Shown: positions 4,314-12,206 of the stretch, piece after piece
Layout of the letters: the number at the start of each line of letters is the position of its first letter
Position numbering within the stretch: position 1 is the stretch's first letter
From: Pseudoxanthobacter soli DSM 19599
GTDB taxonomy: Bacteria; Pseudomonadota; Alphaproteobacteria; Rhizobiales; Segnochrobactraceae
Reading direction: 5' to 3'
DNA length: 35,395 nt
Assembly: GCA_945898215.1 (NCBI GenBank)
Contig: CAMDHY010000037.1
Location: 1 to 35,395, forward strand
Position numbers and translations under genes: made by a program
Notes under the pieces: model-generated
The model's database searches: none
Told to the model about the DNA's origin: nothing
Seen by the model: the letters and a program-made list of their open reading frames with translations, nothing else

Positions 4314-5381
4314 TCAGCTGTAGCGGTAGGGGGCGCCGGCCTTCTGCATGGTGTCGGTGTACTTCTTTAGGATCTCGACGACCTTGGCGTCGCGCGGGCT
4401 GCGCTGGGCGATCTCGTCCCAGAACTTCAGCGCCTCGTCCTCGACCTGCTTCCATTCCTCGGGCGAAATGGTGGTGAGCTCGAGCTTGCCGCCGGTGACG
4501 CGGTAGTGCGCCTCGCCCCACCAGTACCAGTGCTGACGGTAGTAGTTGGAGCTGTCCATGGAGAGCTGGAACAGCGTCTTCAGGTGCTCCGGCAGCTCGT
4601 TCCAGCGGTCGGAGTTGGCGAAGTAGGAGCCGCACCAGGCGCCCGAGATGTTGTTCGTCAGGTAGTACTTGGTGATGTCGGCCCAGCCGACGGTGTAGGC
4701 CTCGGTGGCACCGCACCAGGCGACGCCGTCGATCTCGCCGGTCTGGATGGCGACCTCGATGTCCTCCCACGGCAGCGTCACCGGCACGACGCCGAAGCGC
4801 TCGAGGAAGCGGCCGCCCGTCGGGAAGGTGAAGACGCGCAGGCCCTTGAGGTCGGCGACGCTGCGGATCGGCTTCGTCGTGACGAAGTTGCACGGGTCCC
4901 ACGAGCCGGCGCCGAGCCACTTCACGCCCGGTACCTCGGCATAGGCCTCCTCCCAGATCTGGTTGAGGCCGTAGTTGTGGAAGAGGGCGGGGATGTCGAG
5001 GCTGTAGCGCGAGGCGAACGGGAAGTAGGCGGCGAACACCGCGACGTCGACCGGCGAGGCCATCGAATCGTCGTCGCTCTGGGCGGCGTCGATGGTGCCC
5101 TGCTGCACGGCGCGGAACAGCTCGCCCTGGGGCACCAACTGGTCGGCGGTGTAGAGCTCGATCGTCATCTCGCCGTTGGCGGCCTTGTTGAAGGCCTCGA
5201 TCGACGGCTTGATGACGTGTTCGGCGAGCGCCGGGCCGGCATAGGTCTGCAGGCGCCACTTGATCGGGCTCTGCGCCTTGACGTAGGGCGCGGCGAGCGT
5301 CGTGGCGCCGACGGCGCCGGCGCCGGCGAGGCCGGCGTTCTTCAGGAACTGGCGTTTGCTGAGGCGCTTGGTCTCGCTCAT
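4314..5381 (-). CDS. dctP: TRAP transporter solute-binding protein (DctP family), Tat-like signal
   Basis: This is the periplasmic binding component of a TRAP secondary transporter. The 355-residue protein starts with a twin-arginine-like signal, SKRQFLK at residues 8-14, followed by an Ala/Gly-rich hydrophobic stretch and a probable cleavage after VKA at 36. The mature part has DctP-type features: a YAGPALAEHVIKP opening, GLRVFTFPTGG before the ligand-binding region, and AIQTGEIDGVAWCGATEAY. The first Arg of the Tat pair is Lys, a tolerated but less common variant. A strong AAGGGGAAGA Shine-Dalgarno precedes the ATG. It is the last gene of dctQ-dctM-dctP, 87 bp after dctM, with a hairpin between them. 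The ligand is unknown; a 2-oxo or hydroxy acid is one possibility, and this is inference. Confidence 0.93.
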   Translation of the reverse strand: MSETKRLSKRQFLKNAGLAGAGAVGATTLAAPYVKAQSPIKWRLQTYAGPALAEHVIKPSIEAFNKAANGEMTIELYTADQLVPQGELFRAVQQGTIDAAQSDDDSMASPVDVAVFAAYFPFASRYSLDIPALFHNYGLNQIWEEAYAEVPGVKWLGAGSWDPCNFVTTKPIRSVADLKGLRVFTFPTGGRFLERFGVVPVTLPWEDIEVAIQTGEIDGVAWCGATEAYTVGWADITKYYLTNNISGAWCGSYFANSDRWNELPEHLKTLFQLSMDSSNYYRQHWYWWGEAHYRVTGGKLELTTISPEEWKQVEDEALKFWDEIAQRSPRDAKVVEILKKYTDTMQKAGAPYRYS

Positions 5382-5399
5382 TGCTCTTCCCCTTGGTTG

Positions 5400-5416
5400 G
5401 GCCCCTCGGAGGGGCC
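5400..5416 (-). promoter_or_regulatory. Intercistronic stem-loop between dctM and dctP (TRAP operon 1)
   Basis: GGCCCCT at 5400-5406 pairs with AGGGGCC at 5410-5416 around CGG, a 7-bp all-but-one G-C stem lying 18 bp upstream of the dctP ATG. Such elements in transporter operons often uncouple the expression level of the abundant binding protein from that of the membrane subunits; here that role is inferred. Confidence 0.5.
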
Positions 5417-5468
5417 ATGGAGACGGGGACCGCAGGCCACCGTCAAAAAAGCAGGGAGCCGCCCATGG

Positions 5469-6794
5469 TCAGCGGCCGAGATAGGCGTTCGGCAGCCACA
5501 GGGCGATCTGCGGGAACACCATCAGGATGACGATGGTCAGCATCATCAGCAGCGCGAACGGGATGATCGAGCGATAGATGTCGCCGATGGTGATCTCCGG
5601 CGGCGCCATCGCCCGCATCAGGAACAGATTGTAGCCGAACGGCGGGGTGATGTAGGCGATCTGGCAGGTGATCGTGTAGAGCACGCCGAACCAGATCGGG
5701 TTGAAGCCGAGCTTCAGCACCAGCGGCAGATAGAGCGGGGCGACGATCACCAGCATCGCCGTGTCGTCGAGGAACATCCCCATGATGATGAACGACAGCA
5801 GCATCATCACGAGGATCGTCCAGGGCGAGAGATCCCAGTTGTTCAGCAGCAGGCCCTCGATCGCCTTGACGGCGCCGAGGCCGTCATAGACGGCGCCGAA
5901 GCAGAGCGCGCCGAGGATGATCCACAGGAACATGCAGCTGATGCCGAGCGTGCCGCGGCTGGTATCGGCGAGCACCTTGAAGGTCAGGCGCCCGGAGACG
6001 AGGGCGGCGAGGGTGGCGAGCAGCGCCCCCACCACCGAGCTCTCGACGAGGCTCGTATAGCCGCCGAGGAACAGCCCCATCATGACGCCGAAGACGACGA
6101 GCGGCAGGATGCCGGCGCGCAGCGCCAGGAGCTTCTCGCGCGGCGTGATCGCCGCCCGCTCCTCCGCCGGCATCGGCGGTCCGAGGTGCGGCTGCAGGCG
6201 GCAGCGGATGTAGATGTAGAGGCCGAACAGCGCCGCCATCAGGAGGCCCGGGCCGATGCCGGCGAGCCAGAGCTGCAGCACCGGCTGGCGCGCGATCATC
6301 GCATAGAGCACCAGCACGACGCTCGGCGGGATCAGGATGCCGAGGGACGAGCCGCCCTGGATGACGCCGGTGACCATCACCTTGTCGTAGCCGCGCTTCA
6401 GCATCTCCGGCAGCGCCACGGTGGCGCCGATCGCCATGCCGGCGACGCTGAGGCCGTTCATGCACGAGATCACCACCATCAGCCCGACGGTGCCGAGAGC
6501 GAGGCCGCCGCGCACCGGCCCGAACCAGATGTGGAACATCCGGTAGAGATTGTTGGCGACGCCCGACTCCGAGAACATGAAGCCCATGAAGACGAAGAAG
6601 GGCACCGTGATCAGCGGGTACCAGTTCATCACCTGGATGGCGGAATTGAACGGCAGCTCCACCGAGCCGGCGCCCCACAAGGCGAGCGCCGCCGCGGCGC
6701 CGACGAAGCCGATCACGCCGAAGACGTACTGCCCGGTCAGGAGCAGCATCATCATCGTCGCGAACATGAATAGGGTGATCAGCTCCGGCGTCAT
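5469..6794 (-). CDS. dctM: TRAP transporter large permease subunit (DctM family)
   Basis: This is the main membrane subunit that couples solute import to the sodium gradient in TRAP transporters. The 441-residue product is hydrophobic throughout, with about 12 membrane segments, and contains DctM signatures such as GGSSLGILIPPSVVLVLYAM and ITPPFGYNLFLM, plus MNGLSVAGMAIGATVALPEM. The ATG at 6794 overlaps the dctQ stop as ATGA and has a GGCGGAAAG Shine-Dalgarno inside dctQ, so translation of the two subunits is coupled. The frame is open upstream, but the extra residues overlap dctQ and are not membrane-like. It works with DctQ (6791-7318) and DctP (4314-5381). Confidence 0.95.
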   Translation of the reverse strand: MTPELITLFMFATMMMLLLTGQYVFGVIGFVGAAAALALWGAGSVELPFNSAIQVMNWYPLITVPFFVFMGFMFSESGVANNLYRMFHIWFGPVRGGLALGTVGLMVVISCMNGLSVAGMAIGATVALPEMLKRGYDKVMVTGVIQGGSSLGILIPPSVVLVLYAMIARQPVLQLWLAGIGPGLLMAALFGLYIYIRCRLQPHLGPPMPAEERAAITPREKLLALRAGILPLVVFGVMMGLFLGGYTSLVESSVVGALLATLAALVSGRLTFKVLADTSRGTLGISCMFLWIILGALCFGAVYDGLGAVKAIEGLLLNNWDLSPWTILVMMLLSFIIMGMFLDDTAMLVIVAPLYLPLVLKLGFNPIWFGVLYTITCQIAYITPPFGYNLFLMRAMAPPEITIGDIYRSIIPFALLMMLTIVILMVFPQIALWLPNAYLGR

Positions 6795-7318
6795 GCGACC
6801 GGCTTTCCGCCGATCGGCGTGCCGCGCAGGAGCGCGATGTCCTTGCAGAGGTTCGACAGCGCCTGCAGCAGCACGAGGAAGACACCGAACGTCATGATCA
6901 TCTTGATCGGCCACATCGGTGGCGCCCAGGAGGTATAGTTCTTCTGATTGTAGGTGATCGCATATTCGGTGCTGGAAAGGCCGCCGGCGATCAGCACCCC
7001 GAGATAGAAGATCACGAAGAAGATGGTGAAGGCGTCGATCATCGCGCGGGTGCGCGGCGTGCGGCTGGCGTAGATGAGGTCCATGCGCACGTGGCTGCCG
7101 AGCTGCATCGCATAGGCGCCGCCGAGCAGGTAGTAGGCCGACAGCACGAACTGCGACATCTCCAGTGCCCAGTTCACCGGCACGCCGAAGATCGCCCGCG
7201 AGGCGACGGAGTAGAGCAGGATCGCCGCGAGCAGGAAGAACAGGCCCATCGCGAAGCGACCGACGGCCTCGTTGAAGGCGTCGACGGCGCGGACGAAGGC
7301 GATGACAGCTCTAGGCAT
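6791..7318 (-). CDS. dctQ: TRAP transporter small permease subunit (DctQ family)
   Basis: This is the four-helix accessory membrane subunit that forms the TRAP permease with DctM. The 175-residue product has membrane segments at about residues 22-45, 58-75, 95-115 and 138-158. It contains family features: the SVASRAIFGVPVNWALEMSQ stretch and LGGAYAMQLGSHVRMDL, where DctQ proteins conserve a Gly-x-His-Val-Arg-hydrophobic-Asp pattern. It is the first gene of operon 1 (dctQ-dctM-dctP) and ends in an ATGA overlap with dctM. The 332 bp upstream is non-coding and must hold the promoter, but no convincing -35/-10 pair was found. Confidence 0.93.
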   Translation of the reverse strand: MPRAVIAFVRAVDAFNEAVGRFAMGLFFLLAAILLYSVASRAIFGVPVNWALEMSQFVLSAYYLLGGAYAMQLGSHVRMDLIYASRTPRTRAMIDAFTIFFVIFYLGVLIAGGLSSTEYAITYNQKNYTSWAPPMWPIKMIMTFGVFLVLLQALSNLCKDIALLRGTPIGGKPVA

Positions 7319-7650
7319 GACGTCCCGCGCCGCCGGTCGCCGCAGGGCCGCCTTCGGCGGCGGGGCCGGCCGGAACGGCAGGCGACCAGGACGGCCTCGG
7401 CCGACCCGGAGGCGAAGACGACGGACGATGCGGCAAGCCAGGCTCCCCAGTCGAGACCCGGCGATCTTTTCAGATGGAAATCAACCGTCAAGCCGCATTC
7501 GGCGGCGGGCATCCCCCCGATGGTCGAAGCGGGGCAGGCCCGCCACCGGAAGACGCCGCGACGGACGATGGTCCACAGCGTCTCCGGCGGCGTCTCGGGC
7601 CAGCGCGGCCGGCACAAGGCCGGCCGCGTCTTCGGACGCGAAGCGGCCCC
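7319..7650. other. 332-bp non-coding gap upstream of TRAP operon 1
   Basis: No protein-like reading frame was found. The gap holds the terminator-like hairpins of the upstream Cys-rich gene (7604-7640), a slightly AT-richer patch around 7465-7490 that could be the promoter area of dctQ, and a 6-bp GCCGCC/GGCGGC hairpin at 7347-7361 in the probable dctQ leader. No convincing sigma-70 or sigma-54 element was identified. Confidence 0.6.
7604..7640 (-). terminator. Overlapping terminator-like hairpins after the Cys-rich gene pair
   Basis: CGCGGCCGGC at 7604-7613 and GCCGGCCGCG at 7619-7628 form a perfect 10-bp stem with loop ACAAG. CGCGTC at 7625-7630 and GACGCG at 7635-7640 form a second stem around TTCG. 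The two share bases 7625-7628, so they are mutually exclusive. They lie 10-47 bp past the stop codon of the 7651-8373 gene; no U-tract follows. Confidence 0.45.
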
Positions 7651-8373
7651 TTACTCGCAGTGGTTCAGCGGCGGAACGCGGCCGTAGAGCTCCTTGGTGA
7701 GGATGCGCGGCGTGCCGGTGTTGGCGCCGACATAGATGGTGGCGCCGGTCCTGGCGCTGGTCTTCGGCGCCTGGCAGTTCTTGAAGAAGCTCTTCTCGCA
7801 CGGATAGGGGCCGACGATCTGGTAGCCGACCTTCGCCGTCGACGGATCGGCGGTGGTGATCGGGCAGGAGCAGACGATCTGGCCCTTGGCGACCTTGCCG
7901 AGCCCGGGGAACTCCTGGCCCTGGGTGCTGCGGAAGCAGATGCCGCCATCGCACTGGGCATAGGAGCCGGTGGAGGTCTCCGCCGGGCAGGTGTAGATCG
8001 CCTTGTCGCCGCCCTTCTTCAGAACCTCTGGCGGCAGGCTGAAGGTCGACACCATGTAGCCGTTGCCGACGCCGTCCGCGTTGATGTCGCAGACGTTGCC
8101 CTCCTTGGTGTTGAACGGCAGGCTGATGCTGTCGCCCTTCCTGACGTCGCACTTGCAGTAGGAGACGCCGTCGAAGACGAAGCAGCGCGCCGAGGCGCAG
8201 AGGGCGTAGGTCTGGTTCTCGCAGATCTGGAAGCCCTTGCTGCCGGCGGGCGTCGCCGCGTCGGTGGCGGCGAACGGGGCGGCCGGCGCCAGCACCACGA
8301 GCGCGCCGAGGAGCGCCATCGACCAGAACACGGGCCGCAGCGAATTCATTTTTGAAAACATAAATTTGATCAT
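7651..8373 (-). CDS. Secreted Cys-rich protein, paralog B (14 cysteines)
   Basis: This is a 240-residue exported protein of unknown function. It has an N-terminal hydrophobic signal (cleavage likely near PFAA) and a mature region with 14 cysteines, including ICENQTYALC, YCKC, TCPAETSTG, QCDGGICF, VCSCPIT and a C-terminal PLNHCE. The even count suggests seven disulfides in the periplasm or outside the cell. It is roughly three-quarters identical by eye to the adjacent upstream gene at 8399-9103, so the two arose by tandem duplication. Start is uncertain: ATGs at 8391, 8373, 8361 and 8349 are in frame. 8373 was chosen because AGAG lies about 9 bp before it. The first codons lie in an AT-rich patch unlike the rest of the window. 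I recall similar proteins as hypotheticals in Hyphomicrobiales. Confidence 0.8.
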   Translation of the reverse strand: MIKFMFSKMNSLRPVFWSMALLGALVVLAPAAPFAATDAATPAGSKGFQICENQTYALCASARCFVFDGVSYCKCDVRKGDSISLPFNTKEGNVCDINADGVGNGYMVSTFSLPPEVLKKGGDKAIYTCPAETSTGSYAQCDGGICFRSTQGQEFPGLGKVAKGQIVCSCPITTADPSTAKVGYQIVGPYPCEKSFFKNCQAPKTSARTGATIYVGANTGTPRILTKELYGRVPPLNHCE

Positions 8374-8398
8374 TGTTTTTTGCTCTAACATCCTGCGG

Positions 8399-9103
8399 TC
8401 ATTCGCAGTGGTTCAGCGGCGGCACCTTGCCGTAGAGCGTCTTGCTCGAGGCGCGGGCCGAACCGGTGGGAGCTCCGACATAGATCGTCGAGCCCGTCTG
8501 GTCGCTCGCGGCCTTCTGGCCGCAATACTTGAAGAAGCTCTTCTCGCAGGGGTAGGGGCCGACGATCTGGTAGCCCGTCGTCGCCGTCGACGGATCGGCG
8601 GTGGTGATCGGGCAGGAACAGACGATCTCGCCCTTGTCGACCTTGCCGAGACCAGGGAATTCCTGGCCCTGGGTGCTGCGGAAGCAGATGCCGCCGTCGC
8701 ACTGCGCGTAGGCGCCGGTGGAGGTCTCGGCCGGGCAGGTGTAGAGCGCCTGATCGCCGCCCTTGGTGAGGCTCTTCGGCAGGCTGAAGGTCGACACCAT
8801 GAAGCCGTTGCCGACGCCGTCGGCGTTCACCGAGCAGACATTGCCGCCCTTGTAGGTCAGCGGGATGCTGACGCTGTCGCCCTTCTTCACGTCGCACTTG
8901 CAGTAGGAGACGTCGTCGAAGACGAAGCACTTTGCCGTCAGGCAGAGCGCGTAGGTCTGATTCTCGCAGATGGTGAGGCCGGCGGCCGGCGGCGTCGCGT
9001 CGGTGGCAGCCGACGCGGGCGCCGCGAGCGACAGGGCGAGAAGCACGGCGACGAAGGTGGACGACAGGACGGCACGCAGGTTCGAGAGCGCGGACGCGAG
9101 CAT
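8399..9103 (-). CDS. Secreted Cys-rich protein, paralog A (14 cysteines)
   Basis: This 234-residue exported protein of unknown function is the upstream member of a tandem pair. The signal peptide MLASALSNLRAVL to about ASA at 30-32 is followed by the same 14-cysteine pattern as its neighbour: ICENQTYALC, KCF, YCKCDVKKGDS, TCPAETSTGAYAQC, GICFRSTQGQEFPG, IVCSCPITTADPST, GPYPCEKSFFKYC and a terminal LNHCE. The start at 9103 is set by an excellent AGGGGGAA Shine-Dalgarno 7 bp upstream; the frame remains open for 34 more codons, which lack a signal-like character. It ends 25 bp before the chosen start of paralog B, so they probably share a transcript. It is divergent from TRAP operon 2. No enzyme motif is visible; a structural or binding role is only a guess. 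Confidence 0.85.
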   Translation of the reverse strand: MLASALSNLRAVLSSTFVAVLLALSLAAPASAATDATPPAAGLTICENQTYALCLTAKCFVFDDVSYCKCDVKKGDSVSIPLTYKGGNVCSVNADGVGNGFMVSTFSLPKSLTKGGDQALYTCPAETSTGAYAQCDGGICFRSTQGQEFPGLGKVDKGEIVCSCPITTADPSTATTGYQIVGPYPCEKSFFKYCGQKAASDQTGSTIYVGAPTGSARASSKTLYGKVPPLNHCE

Positions 9104-9306
9104 GACGAAATTCCCCCTGGCCACGGAGTGGCGGTAACGAGGGTCTACGGTGGCAGGTGGTGAAAGTCCTCGCGGATCCGCTCCGAAAATGGAGTGTTGG
9201 CCCACCGAACAGCCGCTTATCCCTCCATTGCGAATTTTAATGAGCCCTGGCGCACCAATCCGCCGACAATCGCCGCAATCCCGACGGTGAACCAGAGGCG
9301 GACCCC

Positions 9307-10302
9307 ATGTCGAACCCGAAGCCCTTCAGCCTGCGCGCGGCCGCCCTCGCGGCGTCGCTCGGCGCCGTGCTCGCGCTCCTGCAGCCGGCGGCGGCCGAGA
9401 CGACTTTGAAGCTCGCCCACGCCTCGAGCGCCGGCAGCCTGATCAACAAGGCGGCCGAGATGTTCGCCGAGAAGCTGAAGGCGGAGAGCGGCGGCTCGCT
9501 GACGGTGCGCATCTATCCGGACGCGCAGCTCGGCGACGAGGGCCCGATCGCCGACGGCGTCGGCGCCGGCTCGATCGACATCGGCCTCGGCGGCGTCGCT
9601 GACGCGATCGACCCGAAGCTCAACGTCGTGACGCTGCCCTTCCTGTTCGCCGACGCCAAGGCGGCGCACGCCTTCCTCGACGGCCCGGTGGGCCGCGAAG
9701 TGTTCGCCACCGGCGGCGACAACGGCTTCCACATGCTGGGCGCGCTCGACTCGGGCTTCCGCCAGTTCGCTACCATCGACAAGCAGATCGTCGTGCCCGC
9801 GGACATGGCGGGCGTGAAGCTGCGCACGCCGCCGAACCCGGTGATTCTGGCCACCATGAAGGCGCTCGGCGCGCTGCCGCAGTCGATCCCGTTCTCCGAG
9901 GTCTATACGGCCCTGCAGTCGCACGTCGTCGACGGCGTCGAGCCGGAGCTACGCGATTTCTACGACCAGAAGTGGTACGAGATCGTCAAGCACGTCTCGC
10001 TGTCCAACTACATCTGGACGCCGAACTACTGGTTCATGAACAAGGCCCGCTACGACGGCCTGACCGAGGCCGAACGCGCCGCCGTCGACAAGGCCGCGGC
10101 CGAGACCACCACCTGGTACCGGGCCGAGCTCGGCGGCGTCTATGACGGCGTCATCGCCGAGCTGAAGGGCAAGGGCATCGTGATCGAGGCGATCGACCCG
10201 GCGCCCTTCCGCGCCAAGGTCGACCCGGTCTATGCCCAGTTCGGCCAGGAGTGGGGCGCCGACTTCGTCGCCAACGTCCGCAAAGCCGCCGCAGGCCAGT
10301 AA
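9307..10302 (+). CDS. dctP: TRAP transporter solute-binding protein (DctP family), Sec signal
   Basis: This is the periplasmic binding protein of the second TRAP transporter. The 331-residue protein has a Sec-type signal peptide (basic start, hydrophobic core, cleavage likely after AAA at 30) and then the usual DctP order: LKLAHASSAGS, FAEKLKAESGGSLTVRIYPDAQLGDEG, GVKLRTPPNPV with the ligand carboxylate-binding Arg, and FSEVYTALQSHVVDGVEPEL. This places it with classical C4-dicarboxylate or sugar-acid type DctP proteins, unlike the Tat-like DctP of operon 1. An AGAGG Shine-Dalgarno precedes ATG 9307. It heads dctP-dctQ-dctM-aminotransferase; two strong hairpins follow its stop. The gene context suggests an amino-bearing carboxylate as ligand, which is inference. 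Confidence 0.95.
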   Translation: MSNPKPFSLRAAALAASLGAVLALLQPAAAETTLKLAHASSAGSLINKAAEMFAEKLKAESGGSLTVRIYPDAQLGDEGPIADGVGAGSIDIGLGGVADAIDPKLNVVTLPFLFADAKAAHAFLDGPVGREVFATGGDNGFHMLGALDSGFRQFATIDKQIVVPADMAGVKLRTPPNPVILATMKALGALPQSIPFSEVYTALQSHVVDGVEPELRDFYDQKWYEIVKHVSLSNYIWTPNYWFMNKARYDGLTEAERAAVDKAAAETTTWYRAELGGVYDGVIAELKGKGIVIEAIDPAPFRAKVDPVYAQFGQEWGADFVANVRKAAAGQ

Positions 10303-10310
10303 CCGTTGCT

Positions 10311-10331
10311 GCCGGCCCGCGGCGGGCTGGC
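10311..10331 (+). promoter_or_regulatory. First intercistronic stem-loop after dctP (TRAP operon 2)
   Basis: Bases 10311-10319 pair with 10323-10331 to give a 9-bp stem (one G-U) with a CGG loop, starting 9 nt past the dctP stop. It probably protects or delimits the dctP message. Confidence 0.55.
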
Positions 10332-10349
10332 CGTCTCCCGGATCGATGA

Positions 10350-10374
10350 GCCGTCGCGCCACCGGCGCGGCGGC
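10350..10374 (+). promoter_or_regulatory. Second intercistronic stem-loop before dctQ (TRAP operon 2)
   Basis: Bases 10350-10360 pair with 10364-10374 to give an 11-bp stem with one G-U pair and an ACC loop, 30 nt upstream of the dctQ ATG. Together with the hairpin at 10311-10331 it fills the 102-bp gap between the binding protein and the permease genes. Confidence 0.55.
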
Positions 10375-10404
10375 CTTGCCGTCCCGCCATCGCCCGAGGC
10401 CCCC

Positions 10405-10923
10405 ATGACCGACACCGCCGGCTCACCGGCCGCGCCCGCCGGCAGGCCGCGCCGCGCTCTCGCCGGCCTGCTCGCCGCCGCCGGGGTCGCCGCCTTCGCC
10501 GTGACGCTCGCGAGCACGCTCGCCGGCATCCTCGCCCGCTACTTCTCCGTCGCCGGCTTCGAGTGGTCGTTCGAGCTCGCCGGTATCGCCTTCCTGTGGA
10601 CGACCTTCCTCGGCGTCGCCTACGCCGAGCTGCGCGGCGACAACGTCGCCTTCTCGCTCGTCGCCGACGCCGCCCCGCCGCGGGCCCGCCGCCTGCTCGG
10701 CGGCGTCTCGGCGCTGGCGCTGCTCGTCGTCGCGGCCGCGCTGCTCGCGAGCGGCGCCGCCGTGCTGCAGCGCTCCGGGATGGTGCCGACGCCACTCCTG
10801 CGCTGGCCGGGCGCCGTCTCCTCGCTGCCGCTGATCGTCTTCGCGGTGGCCGCCGTGCTGATCGCGCTCGCCCGCCTCGCCGGCTTCCTGCGCCGCTCGC
10901 CGGCGGAGGATCCGCGCCGATGA
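10405..10923 (+). CDS. dctQ: TRAP transporter small permease subunit (DctQ family)
   Basis: This is the accessory four-helix membrane subunit of the second TRAP transporter. The 172-residue protein has hydrophobic segments at about 17-42, 50-68, 92-112 and 133-155, and the DctQ-like stretch FEWSFELAGIAFLWTTFLGVAYAELRGDNVAFSL, where TRAP small subunits have Trp/Glu and Arg-x-x-x-hydrophobic patterns. The start at 10405 has CGAGG 6 bp upstream. An upstream TTG in the same frame would pull both intercistronic hairpins into the coding region and is unlikely. It ends in an ATGA overlap with dctM. It is very Ala/Leu-rich, which makes it diverged from the DctQ of operon 1. Confidence 0.88.
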   Translation: MTDTAGSPAAPAGRPRRALAGLLAAAGVAAFAVTLASTLAGILARYFSVAGFEWSFELAGIAFLWTTFLGVAYAELRGDNVAFSLVADAAPPRARRLLGGVSALALLVVAAALLASGAAVLQRSGMVPTPLLRWPGAVSSLPLIVFAVAAVLIALARLAGFLRRSPAEDPRR

Positions 10924-12206
10924 CGGTGGTGCTTCTCATCGGCGGCTTCATGGTCGCGCTGCTCGCCGGCATCCCCGTGGTGTGGGCGATGGGGCTCGCG
11001 AGCCTCGTCGCGCTCGCCATCGGCGACCTCGGCATGCCGCTCGCCTGGTTCGCCCAGCAGACCATTCGCGGCGCCGACTCGATCTCGCTCGCCGCCGTGC
11101 CGCTGTTCCTGTTTGCCGCCGAGCTGATGAACCGCGGCGGCCTGACGGAGCGCATCATGCGCGTCGCCGCCCACCTGTTCGGCCGCTTCACCGGCGGCCT
11201 CGGCCTCGTCAACGTGGCGACCGCCTTCGTCTATGGCGGCGTCAGCGGCTCGGCCACCGCCGACACCGGCGCCGTCGCCGGCGTGATGATCCCGGCGATG
11301 GAGGAGAAGGGCTATCCGCGCGCCTTCTCCGCTGCCGTCACCGCCGCCTCCGGCACGCTCGGCATCATCGTTCCGCCGAGCGTCGTCTTCATCATCTACG
11401 GCGTCGTCACCAACACCTCGATCGCCGGCCTTTTCGTCGCCGGCATCCTGCCCGGCGTGCTGCTCGCCGCGAGCTTCATGGTGACCACCTGGTTCATCGG
11501 CCGCCGCCGCGGCTATCGCGGCGAGGCCGTGCGGGCCGACGCCAGGACGATCGCCCGCGACACCGCCCAGGCGCTGCCGGCGCTCGCCATGCCGGTGCTG
11601 CTGCTCGCCGCCATCCTGACGGGCCTCACCACCACCACCGAGGCAGCGGCGCTCGCCGTCGTCTACGCCTTCCTCGTCGGCACGCTGGTCTACCGCGAGC
11701 TGCCGCTCGCCGCGCTGTGGCCGTCGGCGGTGGAGACGGTCGCGACCACCGGCGCGATCATGATGATCATGGCGATGGCGACGCCGTTCGCCTGGATCCT
11801 CACCGTCGAGCAGGTGCCGGCCGACGTCGCCGGCTGGCTGATCGGCCTCGATGTCTCGGACGGGGGCCGCGTCGCGCTGATCATCGCCGTGCTTTTGTTC
11901 GTCGGCCTGTGGATCGACCTCGGCCCGGCCCTGATCGTGCTGGCGCCGATCCTCACCCCCATCGCGCTCGAAAGCGGCCTCGGGCCGTTCCAGACCGGCG
12001 TGATCTTCACGGTGGCCCTCGGCGTCGGGCTGTTCACGCCGCCGGTCGGCACCAACATCTTCGTCGTCTGCAACGTCGCCCGCGTCGACATGTGGGCGGT
12101 GTCGAAGGAGCTGGTGCCGTTCTGGATCGCGAGCGCGGTCGTGCTGGCGCTGCTCGCCCTCGTGCCCGGCCTGTCGGAGTGGCTGCCGCGGCTGATGGCC
12201 GGATGA
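10920..12206 (+). CDS. dctM: TRAP transporter large permease subunit (DctM family)
   Basis: This is the main transport subunit of TRAP operon 2. The 428-residue polytopic protein carries clear DctM signatures: LFLFAAELMNRGGLTERIM, the YGGVSGSATADTGAVAGVMIP loop, SGTLGIIVPPSVVFIIYGVV and FTPPVGTNIFVVCNVA. Length and roughly 12 hydrophobic segments are normal for the family. The ATG at 10920 overlaps the dctQ stop (ATGA), and its own stop at 12204-12206 overlaps the next ATG in the same way, so dctQ, dctM and the aminotransferase form one translationally coupled chain. The frame is open upstream but out of register with real DctQ, so the 10920 start is firm. Confidence 0.96.
   Translation: MTVVLLIGGFMVALLAGIPVVWAMGLASLVALAIGDLGMPLAWFAQQTIRGADSISLAAVPLFLFAAELMNRGGLTERIMRVAAHLFGRFTGGLGLVNVATAFVYGGVSGSATADTGAVAGVMIPAMEEKGYPRAFSAAVTAASGTLGIIVPPSVVFIIYGVVTNTSIAGLFVAGILPGVLLAASFMVTTWFIGRRRGYRGEAVRADARTIARDTAQALPALAMPVLLLAAILTGLTTTTEAAALAVVYAFLVGTLVYRELPLAALWPSAVETVATTGAIMMIMAMATPFAWILTVEQVPADVAGWLIGLDVSDGGRVALIIAVLLFVGLWIDLGPALIVLAPILTPIALESGLGPFQTGVIFTVALGVGLFTPPVGTNIFVVCNVARVDMWAVSKELVPFWIASAVVLALLALVPGLSEWLPRLMAG

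Follow-up and report, generated by a model that had tools for sequence, protein, structure and literature searches.

Tandem duplicates of an exported 14-cysteine protein in Pseudoxanthobacter soli and a tentative role for their scattered family as an environment-facing binding module

Two adjacent genes in a 35,395-nucleotide stretch of DNA from Pseudoxanthobacter soli DSM 19599 (hereafter the window) encode related proteins of exported type, and these belong to a real family that carries no name in the libraries searched and matches no solved structure at the search sensitivity applied. Our leading explanation, which we hold tentatively, is that tandem duplication produced the pair from a disulfide-locked protein that has spread horizontally, faces the environment and most likely serves as a binding module. 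According to this proposal, the gene for a single-domain protein of ∼200 residues would have been doubled in tandem, probably in the lineage of the window, and its products would be exported and then oxidized outside the cytoplasm, probably by DsbA/DsbB. Up to seven disulfides, nested within each of two six-cysteine units and completed by a pair at the C-terminus, would then lock a beta-rich scaffold with a few helices, which would act at the cell surface or after release as a stable binding module directed toward other organisms or their polymers. The proposal draws on the two genes, their export-like leaders, the conserved cysteines, the patchy spread of the family, the constraint on its sequence and the presence of DsbB, and from these we infer the disulfides, the final location and the binding role.

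Both genes lie on the minus strand. Gene A (positions 8399-9103, protein P0001) is an open reading frame of 234 amino acids, most of whose length is covered by relatives, and gene B (7651-8391, P0002) encodes an exported paralogue of 246 amino acids. The gap between the stop codon of gene A and gene B is 7 bp if gene B starts at 8391; alternative in-frame ATG starts lie at 8373, 8361 and 8349. A promoter and terminator scan found none. A preliminary description of this DNA, made from the letters and open reading frames, had reported two adjacent tandem genes with export-like leaders, a shared plan of 14 cysteines and about three-quarters identity, and each of these points was borne out. The proteins have exactly 14 cysteines each at corresponding positions, BLASTP aligned them with 164 of 237 residues identical (69%, E 7e-117), and their mature parts are 77% identical in the alignment. 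The same description had held that the copies are under selection; we obtained a dS of 0.50 and a dN of 0.21 (ratio 0.42, NG86), and therefore the divergence of genes A and B occurred under protein-level constraint. GC3 is 0.92 in both genes and 0.945 and 0.955 in two neighboring genes, and the total GC of genes A and B (0.667 and 0.645, respectively) is slightly below the 0.705 of the window. In the source genome (4.78 Mb, 224 contigs, 97% complete), genes A and B were the only copies found.

The family alignment has 36 rows. All but one derive from 33 genomes or records that were searched, one of these being a plasmid record rather than a whole genome; the remaining row is the sequence at locus L004, whose genome lay outside the search. 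Its motifs are a YALC-type start, CxC, ST, CDGGxCF-FPG and a CxCP-type motif, together with an export-like leader, and both window proteins fit them. No Pfam-A, NCBIfam, PHROG or PADLOC model passed its cut-off with P0001 or P0002 (the best was TerY_C at 13.9 bits, with a cut-off of 28.4), the 16 members of the first alignment (A1) had no Pfam match, and a profile search of PDB sequences gave nothing credible (best E 1.8). Thus, as had been proposed from the letters alone, no recognized domain was found, and a match to a characterized family, which would have spoken against this, did not appear in the libraries searched. Likewise, in the portions of the literature available, no paper was apparently devoted to this 14-cysteine family and none contained the motif CDGGICF. 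Proteins exported by bacteria in which so many cysteines are conserved, with some gained or lost in pairs, are generally uncommon.

The cysteines of P0001 stand at residues 46, 54, 59, 68, 70, 90, 123, 135, 140, 162, 164, 186, 194 and 233; P0002 has the identical plan, shifted by 11-12 residues relative to P0001, and all 14 cysteines of each protein lie downstream of its signal-peptide-like N-terminus. In gene A (minus strand), a first six-cysteine unit, C46-C90, is encoded at 8834-8968, a second, C123-C186, at 8546-8737, and a C-terminal segment, C194-C233, at 8405-8524. On the basis of cysteine positions and the alignment, the corresponding parts of gene B, on the same strand, are C57-C101 (8089-8223), C135-C198 (7798-7989) and C206-C245 (7657-7776). 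The cysteine spacings are 8-5-9-2-20 in the first unit and 12-5-22-2-22 in the second, a likeness that 0.3-0.6% of random placements attained in tests devised with the data already known and that might hint at an internal duplication, but profile comparison of the first half with the second by hhalign was negative (E 0.074, probability 0.8%).

Seven cysteines (C54, C70, C123, C140, C162, C186 and C233) are invariant in 36 of 36 rows. C59 and C68 go missing together in nine of the 36 rows, and neither is ever lost by itself. In four of those nine, C46 and C90 are both gone as well, and L011 lacks C46 alone; C135 and C164 are jointly absent from two rows (L076 and L078) and never singly. C194 occupies its own column in 24 rows, and the other 12 have a cysteine offset by 1-2 residues. 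With this offset cysteine counted, the full set of 14 is present in 24 of 36 rows, so the loss of cysteines from most homologues, which had been named as a result that would count against the shared plan, is not what the family displays. These counts vary slightly with the alignment chosen: in A1, C186 of L015, L016 and L017 lay one column group off, and later alignments place a cysteine there. Several rows carry extra cysteines outside the plan, and in some rows that have lost cysteines there are others at different places, as in L015, with 12 in the region. The highest number in the region examined is 20, in a Dadabacteria member (L011:3567-4481), the row that lacks C46 but keeps C90.

Because structural disulfides predict such paired loss, the covariation suggests the pairs 59-68, 46-90 and 135-164. 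The pair 54-70 would follow by elimination, and this arrangement suggests that the first unit is nested (C1-C6, C2-C5 and C3-C4). For gene A, we propose the pairs 140-162 and 123-186 by analogy and 194-233 by elimination. Taken together, up to seven disulfides probably lock each protein. Each change in a cysteine pair may be a single event, and the covariation therefore rests on few events (three paired changes); for example, the loss of C59 and C68 is compatible with one origin in the tree, and 70% of bootstrap trees need one. The seven-disulfide module of the preliminary description is thus likely as a whole, with covariation for only three of its pairings, each from few events.

By eye, the N-termini of both proteins resemble signal peptides, at residues 1-32 in gene A (9008-9103, minus strand), with cleavage after ASA, and at residues 1-41 in gene B (8269-8391, minus strand). 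Leaders across the family appear Sec-like in most rows (by eye, uncounted). Those of L005, L006 and L007 end in LTGC, which we take to be lipobox-like, and those of L028 and L072 carry what is presumably a twin-arginine-like motif, both judged by eye. Export of the 14-cysteine proteins is well supported by these leaders, and it appears to be kept across the family while anchoring varies. In L028 and L072, the member with the twin-arginine-like leader forms a two-gene unit (L028:6535-8591; L072:5165-7505) with a two-domain ResA/MauD-like thioredoxin directly upstream, separated by 62 intergenic bases in L028. The L028 thioredoxin scored 105 bits with ResA (cut-off 170) and 79.8 bits with MauD TIGR02661 (cut-off 188.6), and between the two loci it is the only similar ORF besides the family gene and LysR regulators. 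In the window genome, DsbB (PF02600) gave two matches over cut-off. Together, the leaders, the thioredoxin neighbor and DsbB point to cysteines oxidized outside the cytoplasm. One further row, from Paraburkholderia sp. UYCP14C (L004:2721-4133), is without the leader of its close relatives and overruns their stop, and it looks frameshifted or decayed.

A scan of genome contigs returned 14 relatives, whose titles name Paraburkholderia (three), Trinickia, two "Deltaproteobacteria" MAGs, Binatus, Dadabacteria, Methylococcales, Methylococcaceae, Pseudoalteromonas, Shewanella and two lake MAGs, labeled Actinomycetota and Alphaproteobacteria; one more relative was found on a Caballeronia megaplasmid. 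Judged by these titles, the family extends beyond a single order. Members are sparse wherever genomes were counted, in sets that include the center genome, partly overlap and sample the larger groups. They occur in nine of 397 genomes of the order of the window genome (an earlier search with P0001 had found 2 in 41 relatives), in one of 398 of its phylum and in one of three of its family, the last two being its own genome only. Elsewhere, we counted five of 69 genomes in the family of G069, four of 299 in the family of G801, seven of 251 in the order of G803, one of 198 in the phylum of G806 and one of 274 in the class of G807, the last two again being the center genome only.

The family is usually single-copy, with one member in 31 of 33 genomes or records. 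Side-by-side copies, from which a function under selection had been argued, are thus no general trait of the family; they occur only in two, namely the window genome and G811, a lake MAG labeled Alphaproteobacteria in which the copies (L017:182-1886) are 55% identical; the two pairs occupy different parts of the tree. A near relative of one of these L017 copies (L016:1538-2413) lies on a contig binned as Actinomycetota, where mis-binning or a chimeric contig is possible. Genes A and B are mutual nearest rows, followed by L029, from the same order, and then Paraburkholderia. The tandem duplication likely arose in the window lineage; the tree support is not strong, and the join between genes A and B is drawn open. 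The tree crosses taxonomy, in that members from the order of L009 are split among different groups: L074 and L075 group with Pseudoalteromonas and Shewanella (support 97/81), L076 and L078 with Binatus and the "Deltaproteobacteria" MAGs (support 94/89), and L077 and L079 stand apart. The simplest reading of this pattern of sequences is horizontal spread of the family.

The first AlphaFold2 model, from alignment A2, had a pLDDT of 82.2 and a pTM of 0.80, and its five models scored 82, 82, 72, 60 and 50. Because this spread made it shaky, a second model was made with the divergent member L015 in front (pLDDT 85.6, pTM 0.80, five models 82-86). Both are beta-rich with a few helices; the alignments behind them share 16 rows, and the models are not independent. 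Structure comparisons covered the PDB and BFVD. Foldseek of the first model against the PDB gave 0 matches at E 1e-3, and VIA-align, the only comparison of the second model with the PDB, gave 0 of 998 chains at Z of at least 2 for the first model and 0 of 999 for the second. In BFVD, both models retrieved A0A481YSG1 first and A0A6J5QU59 second, and the third match had an E of 0.18 or weaker. Thus, the profile and structure-prediction searches that had been recommended yielded no solved fold, and their two best BFVD matches are viral proteins with modest TM.

A0A481YSG1 is an uncharacterized protein of Marseillevirus LCMAC101. It is of similar length (200 amino acids) and matched one model with E 8.5e-7, TM 0.51, rmsd 5.0 and 22% identity over 201 columns and the other with E 1.4e-5, TM 0.44/0.47, rmsd 8.5 and 16% identity. 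However, its TM is at or under ∼0.5, it is absent from the results of the sequence scans, and it was compared by structure match alone. A0A6J5QU59, from an uncultured Caudovirales phage, matched the two models with E 1.0e-4 and 2.3e-5, but with TM 0.36-0.42, rmsd 8.5-9.4 and 13-14% identity, again as a structure match only. The resemblance of the predicted folds to viral proteins is therefore reproducible but modest (TM 0.36-0.51, rmsd 5.0-9.4). LCMAC101, whose Marseille-like genome measures 763 kb, comes from deep-sea sediment (PMC6401483). Profile, protein and pattern scans of IMG/VR viral contigs recovered no relative of the 14-cysteine family; loosening the pattern brought up six contigs, but the family profile, run with hmmsearch on their open stretches of at least 50 residues, matched none of them. 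Searches of phage records with P0001 and P0005 found no relative. With L015 as query, four weak pieces appeared at E 3, spread over four records from two Escherichia phages and annotated there as tail fiber or hypothetical protein; we took them as chance. A broader version of our proposal, possible but on balance doubtful, is that these proteins have a new disulfide-locked extracellular fold that recurs in scattered bacteria, in a protist-infecting giant virus and in a tailed phage, exchanged because it is useful in encounters among bacteria, protists and viruses. If the viral resemblance were true homology, the family would link bacteria with a giant virus and could make it practical to study how a module passes between hosts that differ widely. 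The 14-cysteine protein is small and likely soluble, and testing it would be inexpensive.

Neighbors were compared by BLASTP (E 1e-6) of ORFs of at least 80 residues in the flanks of 33 loci and in 20 kb of the window. Across these, many of them with short flanks or flanks cut by contig ends, no partner was found at a kept position across lineages. LysR regulators lie near members in six loci (window included), one ORF group is common to five loci (L031 and four of one genus) and two further groups occur in four loci each, all at varied distances. The runs common to L035, L036, L080 and L081, and to L008 and L012, reflect synteny between closely related genomes. The survey of copy number and neighbors that had been suggested thus settled on a usually single copy and provided no recurrent partner. 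Beside the Paraburkholderia franconis member, a YncE/PQQ-type beta-propeller gene (L007:6341-7333) lies on the other strand.

A binding module is our best guess, ahead of antagonism or defense against grazers, because the proteins combine apparent export, paired cysteines and a sparse spread with the lack of a recurring partner. Across the 36 rows, conservation of 90% is reached by no column of His, Trp, Lys or Arg and by a single acidic one, D136 (34 of 36), which mildly favors binding or structure over an enzyme; against this reading, the conservation of the QCDGGxCF and ST motifs would suffice for an active site. A secreted antagonist or anti-predator factor acting on competing microbes or grazing protists is a somewhat unlikely alternative. 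It would suit a patchy, horizontally spread, environment-facing family whose predicted fold is similar to that of a protein from a Marseillevirus-like giant virus, and a marseillevirus was isolated from Acanthamoeba (PMC11936420). However, no gene at a kept position is a candidate immunity gene, no effector or toxin family was matched, and the viral look-alike is uninformative on action. The same resemblance could mean that the family is phage- or virus-derived cargo that performs no steady function for the bacteria carrying it. Its rarity and scatter would agree with this, as would the fact that the sole fold matches in the PDB and BFVD are viral, but we judge such an origin decidedly unlikely: the scans of IMG/VR and of phage records described above gave no member, a dN/dS of 0.42 speaks against idle cargo, and a Pfam scan of nine flanking proteins found no phage gene.

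The remaining alternatives take their cue from the cysteines or from neighboring genes. In one of them, which is fairly unlikely, the family would be a metal or redox protein of the extracytoplasmic space whose cysteines bind metal or shuttle electrons instead of forming structural disulfides. The CxC and Cx4C motifs and the thioredoxin adjoining the gene in L028 and L072 would fit, but the cysteines are lost in spaced pairs, no His is conserved, and the other loci compared, some of them short, have no ORF similar to that thioredoxin at BLASTP E 1e-6. The methylamine dehydrogenase light chain has two Trp residues that form its cofactor, and in the mau system this many-disulfide subunit comes with a twin-arginine-like leader and the MauD thioredoxin. 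A small subunit of a quinone-cofactor dehydrogenase of this kind, with a MauD-like helper, would account for the many cysteines, for the leader and the thioredoxin neighbor (under the TIGR02661 cut-off) in L028 and L072, and for the beta-propeller beside the L007 member (TIGR03866 47.7 bits, cut-off 287.3). Yet no Trp column exceeds 9 of 36, and therefore there is no tryptophan-derived cofactor; unlike the light chain (Me-amine-dh_L), the 16 members of A1 have no Pfam match and the family has no recurring heavy chain; and none of the other loci compared carries an equivalent of the L007 propeller. We rejected this reading, which is largely refuted by the missing Trp and is scarcely credible. 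In the window, the pair sits between two TRAP transporter sets (4317-12203), each pointing away from it: DctQ (6794-7318), DctM (5472-6914) and DctP (4317-5381) on the minus strand, and DctP (9307-10299) and DctM (10563-12203) on the plus strand. This placement, together with a DctP-like ORF ∼2.4 kb from the member in L031, might indicate a periplasmic partner of DctP/Q/M. We consider a role of this sort highly unlikely and rejected the link, because beyond L031 no ORF like the window TRAP genes lies near the other members compared and both sets have their own DctP.

Three other neighborhoods contain recognizable genes. Near the Paraburkholderia piptadeniae member, ORFs that look transposase-like by eye lie a few kb to either side (L005:1052-1642 and L005:9577-10014). 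In L034, a trypsin-like gene (L034:6197-7324; 23.4 bits, cut-off 20.6) is convergent with the family member, and a gene for formaldehyde-activating enzyme (Fae; L009:6746-7630) adjoins the Methylococcales member.
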